Positions 18,886-29,395 of a DNA stretch of 64,000 nt are shown in pieces. Each line of letters opens with the position of its first letter. The stretch's first letter is position 1. The stretch spans positions 1 through 64,000 of the forward strand of contig CAIJRN010000009.1 of the NCBI GenBank assembly GCA_903823115.1. Direction: 5' to 3'. Both the position numbers and the translations under genes were made by a program. The notes beneath the pieces were generated by a model. That model saw only the letters and a list, made by a program, of their open reading frames with translations. It ran no database searches and was not told the DNA's origin. The DNA is from an uncultured cyanobacterium. GTDB taxonomy: Bacteria > Cyanobacteriota > Cyanobacteriia > PCC-6307 > Cyanobiaceae.

Positions 18886-21147
18886 TCACTGATGGTCCAG
18901 CAACTGATCTCCCAGCCCCTGATCTCCCAGCAGTGGCGTTGCAGCGTCTCTCTTGCCAACGACTCCGTTCTCCGCGACTTCGTTGCCCGGGCTGCCGTTG
19001 ACATCCGGATCGGGGATCGGGATCGGCATCACCTGGTTGCGGCCCTTGGACTTGGCCTCATAGAGGGCCTGGTCGGCACGGTTGATCAGCGTGGCAACGC
19101 TTTCACCCTTCTGGGCCAGGGTGACACCGATGCTGATCGTGATCGAAACACTGCCAGCGCCAAGGGGCACTGGGGGGAGCAGAGCCAGGCGCATCTTCTC
19201 GGCCACTGCCATCGCCTGGCCGATGTTGTCGACCCCATCGATCAGCACCAGCAGCTCATCACCGCCGAAACGGGCCACCAGGTCGTTGCGGCGAACGCAG
19301 CCACTGATGCGTTCAGCCACAGCGCGCAACAGGATGTCGCCGGCCTCATGGCCCTGGGTGTCGTTGATCTCCTTGAAGTGATCGAGATCGCAGAAAGCCA
19401 CCGCCAACAGGCGATCACCGCGACGCTGGGATTGAAGCAACTGCTCGAGGTGATCCAACACCTCCTTGCGATTCGCCAGACCCGTCAGTTCATCGGTTCG
19501 GGCACGACGCTCGAGCTTCTGTTCGCTGTTCACTTCGCTGTCCACCGTGCGAAATGATGCCACTTCCCCGTCCTTTTCACCACTGGTGTTGATGTAGGCC
19601 TTGGCGTGCAGTTCCACCCAGTGATAACTGAAATCCCTGGCCCGCAGCCTGAACCGTTCCACCACCGTCTCGGCACCGCCATCGAGGGAGGTGCTGATGC
19701 CATTGAAGATTTCAAGATCAGCGGCATGAACCAGTTCTTGAAGCTTTCGACCTAGCCAGTCGATGGGAGACCAGCCAAGCGTCGGCTGGATCGAGGGCGA
19801 AACCCATACCAATTGACCGTTGCGGCAGTGAACCACGACATCGGAAGAATTTTCAGCCAATAGCCTGTATTTCTCCTCCGATGCCGCCAGGCGCTGCGAG
19901 AAGAGGTGGCGCTCCGTTACATCCCGCCAGGTGTAGCTGATGGAGTCGCCAATGGCGACAGCCCGAACGTCATAACGACGATCTTCGGCTTTGATCTGAT
20001 GGGGATAGATGAAGTCATTCAGCACGAGTGGCTGCGTCGTTTCCACCGTCTGGCAATACATTTCAAACAGTGCCGTACCTTGTTGGGCCGGCATCACATC
20101 GAGCAGATGCTTGCCGATCAGCTGCTCGCGATCGCGATCGATTTCGGTGCAGGCGCTGCCATTGGCATCGGTGTAGATGAAATCGATGATCTTGCCTGAG
20201 GCATCGCGCATGGCTTCCAGCACCACATGGGGATCGAGCAGCGAATCCAGGGTGGCGGCCAGGCGCGCCCGTTCCCGTTCCAGGAAGCGTCGTTGCTGCA
20301 CCAGGGTGTCCACGTCCTGAAAGCTGCTGATCCAGCCCCCTGGCCCTTCGGGCTCCGGCGGCAGGGGCCAGGACAACCCCTGCATCCAGTGGAAGCTTCC
20401 ATCCCGGGAACGCAGCCGCAGCAGCAGAGGTGATTGAGGCAATTCGCCCTTGAGGCTGAACGTATCGTCTGGATGCACCAGGTCGGTGATGGCGGCATTG
20501 ATCAACTCGTCCACTCGCCAACCCAGCACGGTCGCGATCGAAGAGGTGACCCAGGTGACCCGTTGGTCGTCGTTGGTTTCGATCACCACAGCCGAGGCAT
20601 TTTCAGCCAGCAAGCGATAGCGGCGTTCACTGCTGACCAGGGCTTGCTCCGTCTGCCGAATGCGGCTGAGATCGGCGGCGATCAGGCAGTGAATTCTCAC
20701 CCCATCGAGCTCCAGGCCACTCATGGCAGCCAGCACTGGCAGGGCAGATCCATCAGGCAGCAGTAAGGAGAGGGGGGCATGGTCGGTGCTGCCTGGCATC
20801 ACCTGCCGCAGGGCTTCAAGGGCTTGCTGATCAGCAGCCACCACCAGGTCGGTGAGCGGGATGTCCAGCATCGACATGCGTTCCCGTCCCGTCAGTTCCG
20901 CCAGGCGCTGATTGGCATAGAGCACCAGGCCACCGCTTGAAATGGTGGCAGCCCCTTCTCCCATCTGTTCCACAATCACCCGATAGGGCCGATCGGCCGT
21001 GGTGCGGGTGTAAACCCTGGCCGTTTCGCCTGGATCCGTGCCACTGGATTCCAGCAACAACGCGTCAACCTCGCCGCTGGTGATCGCCTGCAAGGCTGCC
21101 TGGAGATCGTCCACCTGATGCTGAAGGTGTTCAACTTCGTTGGCCAC
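18886..21147 (-). CDS. multi-PAS diguanylate cyclase linked to kaiB/kaiC
   Basis: 753 residues, soluble. An N-terminal coiled coil with ITSGEVDALLL, then YRVIVEQMGEGAATISSGG, is the arrangement I know from sensor proteins encoded beside kaiC2-type genes. PAS-like domains occupy roughly residues 52-160, 175-285, 295-410 and 425-540 (YRLLAENASAVVIE and YRLLAENSSDVVVH mark two of them). The GGDEF domain (about 548-705) has RTDELTGLANR, FCDLDHFKEIND and active site GGDEL (628-632; Leu replaces Phe). An inhibitory I-site RRND (619-622) sits 5 residues before it. It should make cyclic-di-GMP under feedback control. No EAL domain. It is the third gene of the kaiC-kaiB operon, 36 nt after kaiB. Confidence 0.9.
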   Translation of the reverse strand: MANEVEHLQHQVDDLQAALQAITSGEVDALLLESSGTDPGETARVYTRTTADRPYRVIVEQMGEGAATISSGGLVLYANQRLAELTGRERMSMLDIPLTDLVVAADQQALEALRQVMPGSTDHAPLSLLLPDGSALPVLAAMSGLELDGVRIHCLIAADLSRIRQTEQALVSSERRYRLLAENASAVVIETNDDQRVTWVTSSIATVLGWRVDELINAAITDLVHPDDTFSLKGELPQSPLLLRLRSRDGSFHWMQGLSWPLPPEPEGPGGWISSFQDVDTLVQQRRFLERERARLAATLDSLLDPHVVLEAMRDASGKIIDFIYTDANGSACTEIDRDREQLIGKHLLDVMPAQQGTALFEMYCQTVETTQPLVLNDFIYPHQIKAEDRRYDVRAVAIGDSISYTWRDVTERHLFSQRLAASEEKYRLLAENSSDVVVHCRNGQLVWVSPSIQPTLGWSPIDWLGRKLQELVHAADLEIFNGISTSLDGGAETVVERFRLRARDFSYHWVELHAKAYINTSGEKDGEVASFRTVDSEVNSEQKLERRARTDELTGLANRKEVLDHLEQLLQSQRRGDRLLAVAFCDLDHFKEINDTQGHEAGDILLRAVAERISGCVRRNDLVARFGGDELLVLIDGVDNIGQAMAVAEKMRLALLPPVPLGAGSVSITISIGVTLAQKGESVATLINRADQALYEAKSKGRNQVMPIPIPDPDVNGSPGNEVAENGVVGKRDAATPLLGDQGLGDQLLDHQ

Positions 21148-21183
21148 GGGTTGCTTTGATGAGGTGGTTATGGGAGTTGTCTG

Positions 21184-21486
21184 TTAATACTTTTCGCCAA
21201 AACTGATCTCCAGGGCCGCCCGCACTCGCTCTTCGTTGCCCAAGTCGCCCACGAGGTAACGCCTGGGCGCAGGCAGATGCTTGACCAAGGTGGGGATCGC
21301 CAGGATTTTGTCGCGAATGGCCGCCTCTGGGTCTGTTCGGATGTCCACCACCTTGAGCTCGAAACGGCCTGCCAGTTCATGATCACAGATCTTGCAGATA
21401 TTGGCCAGGGCCGCAGTCGAGCGAGGAGAAGCTCCATTGATATAGAGCGTCAGCACCCAGTGAAGCTCTTCATGGTTGAGGTTCAC
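21184..21486 (-). CDS. kaiB: KaiB-family protein (KaiB2-like)
   Basis: 100 residues. The thioredoxin-like KaiB fold is recognised from LTLYINGASPRSTAALANIC, ELKVVDIRTDPEAA, ILAIPTLVKHLPAPRRYLVGDL and the final NEERVRAAL. KaiB binds KaiC and in the canonical clock drives dephosphorylation. It sits 2 nt after the kaiC stop, so it is certainly in the same operon. No kaiA is visible nearby. Sequence differences from canonical KaiB (PTLVKHLPAPRRYLVGDL rather than PTLxKVLPPPVRRIIGDL) fit a KaiB2-type partner of a non-canonical KaiC. Confidence 0.92.
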   Translation of the reverse strand: MNLNHEELHWVLTLYINGASPRSTAALANICKICDHELAGRFELKVVDIRTDPEAAIRDKILAIPTLVKHLPAPRRYLVGDLGNEERVRAALEISFGEKY

Positions 21487-21488
21487 AT

Positions 21489-23216
21489 TTATACCTCTCG
21501 GGTTCTTTCGGCCTCACCCTGGTCGAACTCGATGGCAGCCTGTCTTCGGAGCTGCTCTTCGTTGGCTTTCTGCAGATCACTGGTTGTACCTTCCAGCTCA
21601 TTCTCCAAAACGGCAATCTGTGCCCTGAGTACTGCGGTGCGTCGCTGCAGGGAGCTTTGATTCCGTTTGACGTTGGCGAGCCGATTATCGGCGACTCTGG
21701 CAAAACGAGCCAACTGCTGTTTACGAGCTGAACCGGTGAGGATTCCTCCCCGAGGATCAATCATCACCTCGATCAGTTGGGCGCCATTTGTAGTGAGTTT
21801 GAACTCCCTCACCTGATTCGAGTGGGCCATTCCCCGGCTCTTGATCACGAACAGCAAGCGGCTCCGTTCGCCATTGTGTTCGATGTTTCGTAGCAGCAAC
21901 CAGCTATCGGTGAGCGAAGAAACCCCCACGGCACTCGCCTCCTCTTGGTTGCCATGGGTCAAGGAGGTGATAACGGAGGTGATTTCCCGCGACTTGAGCA
22001 TGTCGATCTCCATCGACACGGTGGCTCGGATGTTCCTTTCCGGTCCCAGTTCGGCCAAGCTGCGCATGGCATCGAGCACCACCACGCGGGGACAGAACTC
22101 CTCCAGCACGCGATCGAGGCGACCGAGGTGCTCCTCCAGTCCGTAGGCGGTGGAACGCTCGGCCCAGATTTTCAGCAGGCCGGCATCCACCCATTGCTGC
22201 AGGTCGATCCCGACCGAGCGCATGTTGCGGATCAGCCGGGCCTTTGATTCCTCGAAGGAGATGAACAGGGCCCGTTCACCTCTGCGGCAGGCCGCGTCCA
22301 CCAGCTGGGCGGCGATGGTGGTTTTACCCGTGCCAGCTCTGCCACTGATCAGCAGGCTGGCGCCACGGAAGATGCCACCACTCAGCATTTGATCGAGCTG
22401 CTCCATGCCTGTGGAAACCCTTTCATTCGAGGCCGTGGGCAGGAATTCCGATCCCATGGCGGGCAACACAACAAATCCACGATCTGTAATCAGAAAGGGA
22501 TACTCATTGGTGCCGTGCTCTGATCCCCTGTACTTCAGAATCCGCAAGCGACGGGTTGAAATTTCTTCATGCACGCGGTGGTCGAGCAGAATGGCGCAAT
22601 CGGAAATCACCTCTTCAAACCCGTAACGGGTCAGGCTGCCTTCTCGGCCCCGCTCTTCCGTTACCACCGCGGTGATCTTGCGTTCTTTGAACCAGCGGAA
22701 GAGGCGGGAGAGTTCACCTCGCACCATCAGGTCGTTGCCAAAACTGGCCAGCATGACTTCGATCGTGTCCAAGACAATCCGCTTCGCTCCTATCGCTTCA
22801 ATTGCTTTCTCCAGGCGCAGAAACAGACCCTCCAAGTCAAAACTACCCGTTGTCACGATCTCGGAGGGCTCGATATGAAAGGCATCAATGATCAGCATCC
22901 CGTCTGCGATCTGGCCTTCGAGATCAAAACCAAAGGTGGCCATATTTTCGATCAGATCGGTTCTGGATTCCTCGAAGGTAAACAGCACGCCCGGCTCACC
23001 AAAATCCCTGATTCCCCGCAATAGGAATTCCAGCGCAAACATGGTCTTACCCGTGCCGGAGGCCCCAGCCACAAGGGTGGGACGCCCTTTTGGCAGGCCA
23101 CCAGCACTGATCCCATCAAAACCGCGAATACCAGTTGGAGCCTTGGCCAGAGGTCGAGGAAGGCCAGTGGAATAAACTTTTCCAGCTTGGTCTTGAGAAT
23201 CATTAGGTATTTGCAC
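21489..23216 (-). CDS. kaiC: KaiC-family double ATPase (KaiC2-like)
   Basis: 575 residues, GTG start. Two RecA-like domains. CI has Walker A GASGTGKT (51-58) with catalytic Glu82-Glu83 in FTFEES; CII has GRAGTGKT (292-299) with FEES again. The CII phosphorylation segment reads VGVSSLTDSWLLL, so the Ser431/Thr432 pair of S. elongatus KaiC aligns with Ser433/Ser434. After about residue 495 a long coiled coil (RTAVLRAQIAVLENELEGTTSDLQ) extends the C-terminus beyond that of clock KaiC, as in KaiC2-type proteins. Lower GC than neighbours (25 of 60 G+C in the line at 22921). First gene of an operon with kaiB and the diguanylate cyclase; probably a paralogue of a canonical kaiABC elsewhere. Confidence 0.93.
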   Translation of the reverse strand: MQIPNDSQDQAGKVYSTGLPRPLAKAPTGIRGFDGISAGGLPKGRPTLVAGASGTGKTMFALEFLLRGIRDFGEPGVLFTFEESRTDLIENMATFGFDLEGQIADGMLIIDAFHIEPSEIVTTGSFDLEGLFLRLEKAIEAIGAKRIVLDTIEVMLASFGNDLMVRGELSRLFRWFKERKITAVVTEERGREGSLTRYGFEEVISDCAILLDHRVHEEISTRRLRILKYRGSEHGTNEYPFLITDRGFVVLPAMGSEFLPTASNERVSTGMEQLDQMLSGGIFRGASLLISGRAGTGKTTIAAQLVDAACRRGERALFISFEESKARLIRNMRSVGIDLQQWVDAGLLKIWAERSTAYGLEEHLGRLDRVLEEFCPRVVVLDAMRSLAELGPERNIRATVSMEIDMLKSREITSVITSLTHGNQEEASAVGVSSLTDSWLLLRNIEHNGERSRLLFVIKSRGMAHSNQVREFKLTTNGAQLIEVMIDPRGGILTGSARKQQLARFARVADNRLANVKRNQSSLQRRTAVLRAQIAVLENELEGTTSDLQKANEEQLRRQAAIEFDQGEAERTREV

Positions 23217-23586
23217 TGATCAACGCAACTCTACAGCCTCAACATAGCTGGGTTCGAACAACCTTGTCATCCCAGTTGGGGTGAACAAAGCAAAGGTCCG
23301 AAACATCTTGGTGCCCACTGAGGGTAATCAATTCCAATTTGATCGTTGCAGACTTCGCCGCGGCCACTAAAGCTCGTCAGAACGCGAATTATTCCCCTTC
23401 TCAGCATGCGGAGAATCGATTGACAAGCTTTCTCTGGATTGGGCGTCGAATGCAGATATTCAAGTCAAGTATGATTGGCATGCCCTCTGATAAAATCTAA
23501 TCAGTTCCGACGCTGTTAGGTGGTTCCCTCTGCTGCAGATTCGCATTGTGAGCGCTTCGATCCATTCGGCCCTGTCCGTTGGCTCA
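23217..23586. other. AT-richer intergenic region upstream of kaiC operon
   Basis: 370 nt between the kaiC start and the stop of the membrane protein at 23587. It is clearly lower in GC than the surrounding genes and contains no supported ORF. It should hold the kaiC-kaiB-GGDEF promoter on the minus strand. I found no confident -10/-35 pair or repeat. Confidence 0.4.
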
Positions 23587-24534
23587 TCAAGGCAGCGACG
23601 CATCGGCCCGGTACCGCCTCACCCAGGCTTCCTGCGCCGCCACCAGCAGCAGCAGCCAGAGGCTGCCGGCCAGGGTGAGCAGCGGATAGGTCAGCGGCGG
23701 CTGGGGAATCACGAACGGCAGCAGGGCCAGGCCCAGGGCCGGCGGGAACGGTAACTGCGCCAGCTTCAGCAGCGCCAGGGTGGCCAGCACCGCCAGAAAG
23801 GCCGCGGCCGGCGTCACCCCCAGGGTTCTCGCCAGGCCCAGCCCCATCACCGCGGCGCTGTTGGCCACCACCAGCACGGCGCCGGAGCGGCCACGCCAGG
23901 GGCAATGCTGCCGGTGCACGATCATCTCAAAGGCAATCACCAGCAGCGGTGGAAACAGCACCAGCGGCGAACCGATCAGGCCCGCCAGCACCAGTCCCCC
24001 CAGCAGGAACACGCCAAACGGCAGGGCCCAGCCCTTCAGGGGCGGCAGGGCTGAGCGGGGGGCTGGGCCATCCGCTTGCAGCACAGCGCTGCTCAGGTGC
24101 CAACGCCTGCGCAGGACGATCAGCAGCGCCAGGCCACCGGTGCCGATCAGGATCGAAAATGGATAGCTCCAGGTGTGGATGCCGAGTGCAAGCGGCAGCA
24201 ACCCAGCCGAGAGGGCCGGCACGATCGGCGACCGCAGGGCGGCGATCACCAGCAGGGTGAGCCCCACATTGAGCAGCACCGCCGTGGGGCCATAGGCCAG
24301 GTGGCGGGTGATCCACAGCCCCTGAACCGCGGCCAGGAAGGGCGTCAGCATCAGCAGGGCTGGCGAGCGGGCCCAGGGATGGCGGGCATTGCTGAAGATC
24401 ACCCAGCCCAGAGCCCCGAGCTCGGGGAAGAGCACGTAGGGCATGCCGGTGGCGTTGGCGATCGCCGTGATCAGCGCCAGGAAGGCTGCAATCGCCAGAT
24501 CGGGGCGGCCTAACTTCAGCCGGCCTTCAACCAC
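23587..24534 (-). CDS. multi-pass membrane protein, HPP-like (tentative)
   Basis: 315 residues, almost entirely hydrophobic, with roughly ten membrane segments in two similar halves. GMPYVLFPELGALGWVIF, followed by RSPIVPALSAGLLPLALG and YPFSILIGTGGLALL, resembles HPP-family proteins; the equivalent in the second half is GSPLVLFPPLLVIAFE. Function unknown, possibly transport (nitrite transport has been reported for some HPP proteins). The GTG start overlaps the hemB stop by 19 nt, so it is co-transcribed with hemB. Confidence 0.6.
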   Translation of the reverse strand: MVEGRLKLGRPDLAIAAFLALITAIANATGMPYVLFPELGALGWVIFSNARHPWARSPALLMLTPFLAAVQGLWITRHLAYGPTAVLLNVGLTLLVIAALRSPIVPALSAGLLPLALGIHTWSYPFSILIGTGGLALLIVLRRRWHLSSAVLQADGPAPRSALPPLKGWALPFGVFLLGGLVLAGLIGSPLVLFPPLLVIAFEMIVHRQHCPWRGRSGAVLVVANSAAVMGLGLARTLGVTPAAAFLAVLATLALLKLAQLPFPPALGLALLPFVIPQPPLTYPLLTLAGSLWLLLLVAAQEAWVRRYRADASLP

Positions 24535-25517
24535 TGGGCCGCATCACAGGCGTGATAAGTGAGGATCAGATCGGCCCCGGCCCGGCGGAAACAGAGCAGG
24601 GTTTCCAGCACGATCGCGCGCTCATCGATCCAGCCCCGTTCGGCCGCAGCCTTGACCATGGCGTACTCGCCGCTGACGTTGTAGGCGGCGATCGGCAGCT
24701 CGGTTTCACCCCGCAGGCGATGGATGATGTCGAGATAGGCCAGACCCGGCTTGACCATCAGGATGTCGGCTCCCTCCTGTTCGTCGAGCAGGGCTTCGGT
24801 GAGGGCCTCGCGGCCATTGGCCGCATCCATCTGATAGGTGCTTTTGTCCTTGGGAATCGGCTTGCCGGATGTGGTGCGGGGGGCCGAATCGAGGGCTTCG
24901 CGGAAGGGCCCGTAGAAGGCGGAGGCGTACTTGGCGGTATAGCTGATGATGCCCACATGCTCGAAACCCTCCTCGTCGAGGGCTTCGCGGATGGCACCAA
25001 CGCGGCCATCCATCATGTCGCTGGGGCCGATCAGATCGGCACCGGCCCGGGCCTGGGCCACGGCCTGGCGGCAGAGAATCTCCACCGTTTCATCGTTGAG
25101 CACCACCCCCTCGTCCGAGACGATGCCGTCGTGGCCGTCACAGGAGTAGGGATCGAGGGCCACATCGGTCATGATCGCCATGCCGGGATGGACCTCCTTG
25201 AGGAGCCGGATCGCCCGGGGGATCAGGCCGTGCTCGTTGAAGCACTCGGCGCCATCCTCACTTTTGAGCCCATCGGCAACCTTGGGGAACAGCACCACGC
25301 AGCGGATGCCCAGCTCCCAGGCGCGGCCCACCTCATCCACCAGGCCCTCGAGGCTCCAGCGGTTGGCCCCGGGCATGGCGCCGATCGGCTCGTTCGTGGC
25401 GCCCTCATGCACGAACAGGGGATAGATGAAGTCGGTGGGGGCGAGATGGTGTTCCCGCACCAGCGCCCGCAGGGCCGGAGTCCGCCGCAGCCGGCGCGGG
25501 CGATAGCTGAGATCCAT
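24516..25517 (-). CDS. hemB: porphobilinogen synthase (delta-aminolevulinic acid dehydratase)
   Basis: 333 residues. Condenses two 5-aminolevulinate molecules to porphobilinogen, needed for haem, chlorophyll and bilins. RRLRRTPALRALVREHHL, the metal region DVALDPYSCDGHDGI, ISYTAKYASAFYGPFREA (Schiff-base Lys) and ADILMVKPGLAYLDI (second catalytic Lys) are all present. The metal site has Asp and a single Cys (DPYSCDGHDGI), the Mg-type layout of cyanobacterial and plant enzymes. Full length and intact. Confidence 0.97.
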   Translation of the reverse strand: MDLSYRPRRLRRTPALRALVREHHLAPTDFIYPLFVHEGATNEPIGAMPGANRWSLEGLVDEVGRAWELGIRCVVLFPKVADGLKSEDGAECFNEHGLIPRAIRLLKEVHPGMAIMTDVALDPYSCDGHDGIVSDEGVVLNDETVEILCRQAVAQARAGADLIGPSDMMDGRVGAIREALDEEGFEHVGIISYTAKYASAFYGPFREALDSAPRTTSGKPIPKDKSTYQMDAANGREALTEALLDEQEGADILMVKPGLAYLDIIHRLRGETELPIAAYNVSGEYAMVKAAAERGWIDERAIVLETLLCFRRAGADLILTYHACDAAQWLKAG

Positions 25518-29031: not shown

Positions 29032-29069
29032 AGACAGGCTAGAAACCCTTGCAATCACTACTTAAAAGG

Positions 29070-29395
29070 GGCCCTTCCAGGCCCCATGGATCATTTGGGT
29101 GACAAGGCTGATCTCACCCCGTCTCCGTTAAGAGTGTCAGGCAGCCACAGGGGCGGCTTGACGGGAGAAACGAACGATGTTGTTCGCTGTTACGGGTTTG
29201 CTCTTACCGAGCAGGCTTCAGTCACCCTCCTTTTGCCCCGTCGAAACCATTGCAGCCCCGGAAAGGGGGAATGGAGCTGAGCGGAATCGAACCGCTGTCC
29301 GAAACACTGGTGTGAGCCACCTAGTCGGCCCGAGGACCGACCTGTTCATCTTGACACCAGAGGTGCGAATCCGGCCGCTGCAGCCCAGGTGGGCA
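29070..29395 (-). ncRNA. ssrA: circularly permuted two-piece tmRNA
   Basis: tmRNA rescues stalled ribosomes and tags the nascent chain. On the minus strand the acceptor piece comes first, ending in the T-arm GGTTCGATTCCGC and acceptor strand CAGCTCCA (end at 29272). A 12-nt spacer (29260-29271) follows, then the 5' strand GGGGCTG (from 29259), which pairs with CAGCTCC, and the D-like region TGGTTTCGACGGGG. The tag frame at 29137-29187 encodes ANNIVRFSRQAAPVAA and ends in TGA. CCA is not encoded. The permuted order is characteristic of alpha-cyanobacterial tmRNA. The outer ends are approximate. Confidence 0.93.

Follow-up and report, generated by a model that had tools for sequence, protein, structure and literature searches.

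A cyanobacterial KaiC2-KaiB operon with a predicted diguanylate cyclase, and a kaiB-linked N-terminal module shared by diverse signalling proteins

The closest described counterpart of the locus presented here is the hourglass of Rhodobacter sphaeroides, in which KaiC2 forms a dodecamer, autophosphorylates without KaiA, is dephosphorylated under stimulation by KaiB, and takes the ATP/ADP ratio as its cue (PMC10076222); neither "histidine kinase" nor "operon" occurs in the main text of that paper. KaiC2 proteins are marked by two serines at the phosphosite and the lack of an R-linker in CI (PMC5520375) and by a C-terminal extension of ~50 residues (PMC10076222). In non-cyanobacterial genomes, cyanobacteria being the exception, kaiC-kaiB clusters have been reported to be followed by a gene for a histidine kinase or a GGDEF/EAL protein, and where a kaiC-kinase cluster lacks kaiB, the kinase carries a KaiB-like N-terminal domain (PMC3164672). 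Fold-switched KaiB is known to bind KaiC as well as other partners (PMC11551320). Among cyanobacteria, Synechocystis has a KaiC2-KaiB2 pair beside the canonical kaiABC (PMC11372060, PMC9846126), and its kaiC2B2 knock-outs showed unaffected rhythm and fitness (PMC9846126); a KaiC2 pair thus need not have a clock function. With regard to c-di-GMP, work on Leptolyngbya Dgc2 and the Synechococcus elongatus clock has described that an expressed phosphodiesterase makes the period longer and the phase later in S. elongatus (PMC10581220, PMC13001216). In the portions of this literature that were available, we met no explanation of how KaiA-less timers hand on time.

The window, i.e., the whole stretch of 64,000 nucleotides analyzed here, lies on contig C9 of a 3.42 Mb cyanobacterial genome (86 contigs, 99.8% complete), which its GC content and its kaiABC-type cluster suggest to be Cyanobium- or Synechococcus-like. 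A preliminary description of this DNA had placed a kaiC at 21489–23216; these coordinates proved exact, and the strand, which it had not given, was found to be minus, with a GTG start and 575 codons for amino acids, while the plus strand of the same interval contains stops. All features it described are present, yet it overlooked the kaiB and GGDEF genes that follow downstream. The features are as follows.

21489..23216, minus strand: kaiC2 (575 aa) with two RecA-type domains, a Ser-Ser phosphosite and a helix at the C terminus (ORF, domain search, tree, structure prediction)
23043..23066, minus strand: Walker A of CI, GASGTGKT, residues 51-58 (motif; coordinates derived from residue numbers)
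22320..22343, minus strand: Walker A of CII, GRAGTGKT, residues 292-299 (motif; coordinates derived from residue numbers)
21915..21920, minus strand: Ser433/Ser434 codons, predicted phosphosite pair (motif and alignment)
21498..21734, minus strand: helical tail at the C terminus (residues 495-573), a predicted coiled coil (heptad score, structure prediction, Foldseek)
23241..23270, minus strand: promoter-like site upstream of kaiC, 9/12 matches, weak, since three such sites occur in the region against 1.1 expected
21184..21486, minus strand: kaiB (100 aa), separated by 2 bp from kaiC (KaiB domain PF07689, E 3.9e-23)
18886..21147, minus strand: multi-PAS protein with a GGDEF domain (753 aa), predicted to be a diguanylate cyclase, 36 bp behind kaiB (domain search)
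21049..21147, minus strand: N-terminal kaiB-linked module of the cyclase, a helix and then GEVDALL (profile, structure prediction)
19252..19266, minus strand: GGDEF motif, here GGDEL (motif)
19282..19293, minus strand: RxxD (RRND), intact (motif)

The assignment of the window KaiC to KaiC2, the class of the R. sphaeroides protein, is supported by tree, sequence and predicted fold, in agreement with what had been proposed from the letters alone. A quick maximum-likelihood tree built from 126 KaiC rows places it with R. sphaeroides KaiC and 103 further rows (100 SH-aLRT), and 20 KaiC1 rows fall outside this clade together with one KaiC3-like row, the only representative of that kind in a tree that holds no named KaiC3; the placement against KaiC1, KaiC2 and KaiC3 that the preliminary description had called for thus sets the protein apart from canonical clock KaiC. 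The placement of the KaiC3-like row and of the KaiC from contig C47 (own_C47), both on long branches, is unsure, and the Pararhizobium KaiC, whose frame starts with a long extra stretch, was left out. The top PDB sequence match is 8DBA, the dodecameric R. sphaeroides KaiC (phmmer, E 7e-164), and the leading Foldseek matches are the phosphomimetic dodecamers 8FWI and 8FWJ of the same species, followed by 8DBA, with 47–49% identity over the alignments. The protein resembles the hourglass KaiC in clade, identity, Ser-Ser site and C-terminal helix. VIA-align Z scores were 36.7 for the tail-less 8DB3, 34.4 for 8DBA and 35–36 for several cyanobacterial KaiCs; these values are similar across KaiC classes, and therefore the fold alone does not separate them.

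The phosphosite motif VSSLTD yields Ser433/Ser434, and in our alignment these residues stand, in line with the claimed match to clock KaiC, at the Ser-Thr pair of the canonical KaiC of the same genome, with Ser428 at the Thr426 position. Two serines occupy this site in 101 of 106 rows gathered by likeness to the window KaiC, and Ser-Thr in all 20 KaiC1-type rows of the same alignment. Both ATPase sites retain the Walker A motifs (starting at residues 51 and 292) and the Glu pairs (E82/E83 and E322/E323), again as anticipated. The long helical tail behind CII was confirmed as a prediction: a 79-residue helix (495–573), extending beyond the A loop, with block-mean pLDDT of 82–91 up to residue 560 and then 72 and 53, which aligns with the tail of 8DBA up to residue 553. 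None of 500 shuffles matched the best 42-residue heptad score of the tail, a weak test, because R. sphaeroides KaiC, whose coiled coil is known, itself scored only p 0.042. With two serines and a C-terminal extension, the protein is KaiC2 by the published marks (PMC5520375, PMC10076222, as far as available), and for the same reason neither feature is new; the window KaiC itself is an ordinary KaiC2.

That this protein should be a canonical, KaiA-driven clock KaiC is an idea to which the genome lends some color, for it does contain a gene taken for kaiA, recognized by reading and by its place. This putative kaiA, however, adjoins the Ser-Thr KaiC of contig C14, a separate protein of 512 aa, and the window KaiC has a Ser-Ser site and a tail, lies outside the KaiC1 clade, and scores below the cut-off of the circ_KaiC model TIGR02655 (346.4 vs 546.25 bits). 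Tree, phosphosite and cut-off rule out the canonical clock KaiC, and we regard this possibility as exceedingly improbable.

The KaiB of the window is clear at the level of the family (PF07689, 81.4 bits vs a cut-off of 27) and does not reach the cut-off of TIGR02654, the circadian KaiB equivalog (69.7 vs 145.3 bits). The GGDEF domain of the following protein is full (PF00990, profile positions 2–161 of 161). Its signature reads GGDEL, not GGDEF, as it also does by reading in the congeners G039 and G020, which counts against c-di-GMP as the output. The intact RxxD lies at a position that we take to be the inhibitory c-di-GMP site. The operon kaiC-kaiB-GGDEF is repeated in G039, and dN/dS between the two genomes (0.14 for kaiC, 0.23 for kaiB and 0.19 for the cyclase gene) shows all three genes to be under purifying selection. 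Their GC content is 0.565–0.605 (GC3 0.65–0.71; 18886–23216) whereas the whole window stands at 0.66; a similarly low value, 0.58, applies to the canonical kaiC. Elsewhere in the window, hemB (Pfam ALAD) lies two genes upstream of kaiC (24516–25517, minus strand), and a tmRNA gene with the tag ANNIVRFSRQAAPVAA is found at 29046–29361 (minus strand).

Four two-domain KaiCs are encoded in the genome, on C14, C9 (the window), C30 and C47. Of its five KaiB domains, four accompany these kaiC genes, and the fifth belongs to a 410-residue frame on C32, a putative SasA. On C14, kaiC adjoins kaiB and the putative kaiA, and the genome accordingly holds a canonical kaiABC and three KaiC2-KaiB pairs, the paralogous sets lying outside the window. 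The C30 set is kaiC-kaiB-HD-GYP with 4-bp overlaps between neighbors (HD_5, E 1.7e-37); this HD-GYP gene is one of 2 HD_5 matches in the genome, which has 13 GGDEF matches. On C47 the pair is followed by a gene read by eye as hemL (L019, 3067–4392, minus strand). Behind the kaiC2 of the congener G005 stands a 1280-aa ORF read by eye as the H subunit of magnesium chelatase (L057, 8163–12005, plus strand), so that tetrapyrrole genes occur near three KaiC2 genes (window, C47 and G005, the last two by eye only). In the congener G020, kaiC, kaiB, HD-GYP and GGDEF genes are consecutive.

KaiC2 is present over most of its length in 7 of the 42 genomes of the genus, and as a fragment in an eighth (G027). 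Nine KaiC2s of the genus form one clade (97) in the 126-row tree; the other 14 cyanobacterial KaiC2s of the sample lie elsewhere, and the nearest row outside the clade is an actinomycete MAG. This separation suggests that KaiC2 may have reached the genus by a separate arrival, the details of which are unsure owing to long branches. On contig 67 of G039 (L053), a counterpart of the C47 KaiC2 is interrupted by an in-frame TAA, and this copy may therefore be decaying.

The window cyclase and the HD-GYP phosphodiesterase of C30 begin with the same module of ~30 residues, with the consensus LRxRLxEAEETLxAIRxGEVDAL, in which A21, I22, G25, D28 and A29 are invariant among 35 aligned rows. AlphaFold2 predicts one helix (residues 2–24) and a short strand, followed by a PAS fold, and the 50 Foldseek matches listed for this model in the PDB are all PAS-type proteins. 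Pfam recognizes the window cyclase only from residue 55 on, and the families common to most module rows are PAS. A search for three letter strings from the module gave no match in the literature covered, which reaches few subscription papers.

A profile built from the 35 aligned modules was searched in four settings. The first comprised 80 KaiC2 loci, the best 80 among at least 549 confirmed relatives; they span many bacterial phyla and include some archaea. Here an initial regular expression had detected the module in 42 of the 74 loci with at least 2 kb downstream, an undercount, since the profile raised its presence to 72 of the 80 loci (73 ORFs); this figure is not independent, because the profile was built partly from those loci. 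Among these best 80, kaiB lies within 0.4 kb upstream of 72 of the 73 module ORFs, the 73rd standing behind another module gene, and the profile found no module elsewhere within the loci. Three of the eight loci without module have no kaiB and five have one; one of the latter (L110) ends 775 bp past kaiC. When twelve loci were rechecked for kaiB (tblastn, E up to 0.1), it was found in L019, L058, L061 and L186 and not in L054–L057, L104, L118, L134 and L180; L061, from Falsirhodobacter, has both an annotated kaiB and the module.

Within whole genomes the picture is the same. The 42 genomes of the genus gave five module matches in three genomes, all in kaiBC2 operons. Four members of the genus (L054, L055, L056, L057) have a tailed KaiC2 with no kaiB in the surrounding 16–18 kb, and no module was found in their whole genomes. 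Of twenty whole genomes reached through the loci, 19 had matches at E<1e-6, 20 in total, and every one of these fell at the kai locus (19 placed by script, L117 by hand), with only two further matches, both at E>1e-3; the remaining genome, G047, had no module match.

A fairer test than the 80 loci is offered by two samples drawn regardless of KaiC2, although each contains its center genome (G000 or G059), which contributed modules to the profile. The cyanobacterial sample of 292 genomes yielded 15 module matches in 13 genomes, all directly behind kaiB; 11 lie near KaiC2 and 4 do not (G218, G315, contig 60 of G322, G088). KaiC2 was detected at E 1e-115 in 14 of these genomes, 11 of them also with module (Fisher p 1e-15). 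In 299 genomes of the phylum of G059, module and KaiC2 were each found in 9 genomes, and both in 8 (Fisher p 6e-14). Eight of these nine module matches stand behind a clear kaiB with KaiC2 in the genome, and the ninth (G458, L230) follows a short ORF in which the beginning of a kaiC is fused with the last part of a kaiB, i.e., a decayed operon, its module cut. Across many phyla, the module is thus shown to be near-exclusively linked to kaiB. The reverse does not hold. A module gene stands behind 11 of the 17 KaiC2 places found in the cyanobacterial sample and is missing at the other 6 (C47, G088, contig 18 of G135, G137, G154, G253), five of which (all except G088) have kaiB; in the case of C47, no module occurs in the 14 kb around the pair. 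An adjoining kaiB therefore does not guarantee a module gene behind KaiC2, which counts against reading the module as an output connector.

The proteins that carry the module are diverse. Our domain tally covered 74, namely 67 of the 73 ORFs from the 80 loci (the best 80 of at least 549) and seven others (window, C30, G039, two of G020, R. sphaeroides and Pararhizobium); L066, L075, L081, L096, L132 and L139, most of them near a contig end, were left out. HATPase_c was found in 47 of the 74, GGDEF in 9, and EAL, HD_5, Sigma54_activat and HTH_8 in 4 each, so that histidine kinases, GGDEF, EAL and HD-GYP proteins and sigma-54 activators all bear it, and the module is constant while the output is exchanged. 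Some module proteins of Bacteroidota are ~235 aa long, and the one scanned (L085) has PAS-type families only. In R. sphaeroides the module sits on a histidine kinase, annotated as HWE, next to kaiB, and the same applies to Falsirhodobacter. The window operon thus agrees with R. sphaeroides in having kaiB next to kaiC and the same N-terminal module on the next gene, and differs from it in that the output gene is a GGDEF protein instead of a histidine kinase, and in that its genome has three KaiC2 copies and a canonical set.

What does the module do? We propose, tentatively and at slightly less than even odds, that it is a general KaiB-dependent docking or relay connector which, in bacteria and archaea, couples KaiC2 timers to interchangeable outputs (histidine kinases, GGDEF, EAL and HD-GYP proteins, sigma-54 activators), and that in the present genome two such timers run the making and breaking of c-di-GMP. 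The linkage to kaiB is a matter of observation, and binding is what we infer from it. A simpler account would take the module as a mere dimerization or signalling helix in front of PAS that stayed with kaiB through inheritance of one old operon, without any contact to Kai proteins. The predicted single helix leading into a PAS fold, the PAS-type proteins among the PDB matches listed, and the same PAS type following in 66 of 81 rows (script pattern; several others alike by eye) all agree with it, and co-inheritance of an old operon would also yield linkage without contact. Nevertheless, the profile finds the helix nowhere else better than E 1e-3 in the genus and locus-derived genomes, and in the samples of 292 and 299 genomes only behind kaiB or a kaiB remnant. 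Moreover, a different PAS type follows the same helix in L112, L114 and L127 (script pattern) and in L093, L119 and L138 (by eye), outputs are swapped while the helix stays, and the helix remains with kaiB where kaiC is not adjacent. We therefore consider this account unlikely, though it deserves to be kept in mind.

If the module is a connector, its partner might be either of two proteins. A helix-to-helix contact with the tail of KaiC2 would fit the prediction of both as helices with heptad-like hydrophobic spacing (for the module by eye) and the co-occurrence of KaiC2 and module. Against it, G218 and G315 have kaiB and a module gene with no KaiC2 at E 1e-115, and the four kaiB-less members of the genus described above keep a tailed KaiC2 and no module genome-wide; contact with the tail instead of KaiB thus appears quite improbable. 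Since the module stays with kaiB without an adjacent kaiC and is missing where KaiC2 occurs without kaiB, KaiB is the likelier partner. Cyanobacterial clusters of one or two kaiB genes and a module gene with no adjacent kaiC are represented by L176, L177, L178 and L179.

Taken as a docking element for KaiB, the module allows a scenario for the window operon, which we consider on balance probable to be a KaiA-independent KaiC2-KaiB timer with c-di-GMP output. If it works like its R. sphaeroides counterpart, KaiC2, presumably a dodecamer joined through its tails, would sense the ATP/ADP ratio through autophosphorylation at Ser433/Ser434, and fold-switched KaiB would bind it and drive dephosphorylation. 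The state of KaiB-KaiC2 would then be relayed through the N-terminal module to the cyclase and alter c-di-GMP synthesis, and the paralogous pair on C30 would drive the opposite enzyme, the HD-GYP phosphodiesterase with the same module. What the sequences show are the content and order of the genes, the class of each protein, the catalytic motifs (with GGDEL in the cyclase), purifying selection and the near-exclusive linkage of module and kaiB; dodecamer, phosphorylation, the module as contact, KaiB as partner and c-di-GMP as physiological output are what we infer. The unaffected rhythm and fitness of the Synechocystis kaiC2B2 knock-outs speak against the scenario.

Some of this was known. A signalling gene directly after kaiC-kaiB, GGDEF/EAL included, has been described outside cyanobacteria (PMC3164672, available part), and the present operon conforms to this arrangement; unlike the kinases of that report, which bear a KaiB-like N-terminal domain, the proteins here bear a different module, and the two would be alternative ways of bringing the KaiB fold to an output. 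Judged by its description (PMC11372060, PMC9846126, available parts), the Synechocystis pair is similar as a cyanobacterial KaiC2-KaiB beside canonical kaiABC. The work on Leptolyngbya Dgc2 and S. elongatus likewise concerns c-di-GMP enzymes in cyanobacteria, but in the available parts of those reports c-di-GMP acts on the clock and no link to a kai operon is described (PMC10581220, PMC13001216). Within the literature searched, where subscription papers are mostly outside, neither an HD-GYP gene in a KaiC2-KaiB operon nor a pairing of cyclase and phosphodiesterase operons turned up, and a literature search gave no paper on kaiC and kaiB of Cyanobium.

It is the operon, above all its kaiB-linked module, and not the ordinary KaiC, that is the less ordinary part of this locus. 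The module hints at a way in which timers without KaiA could transmit their signal, and as it marks the gene behind kaiB in most of the KaiC2 clusters sampled, the question becomes directly testable with two or three purified proteins. If the proposal is true, Kai output would reach beyond histidine kinases to c-di-GMP and direct transcription activators, and cyclase and phosphodiesterase operons under paralogous KaiC2s would amount to a two-armed, time-dependent control of a second messenger.
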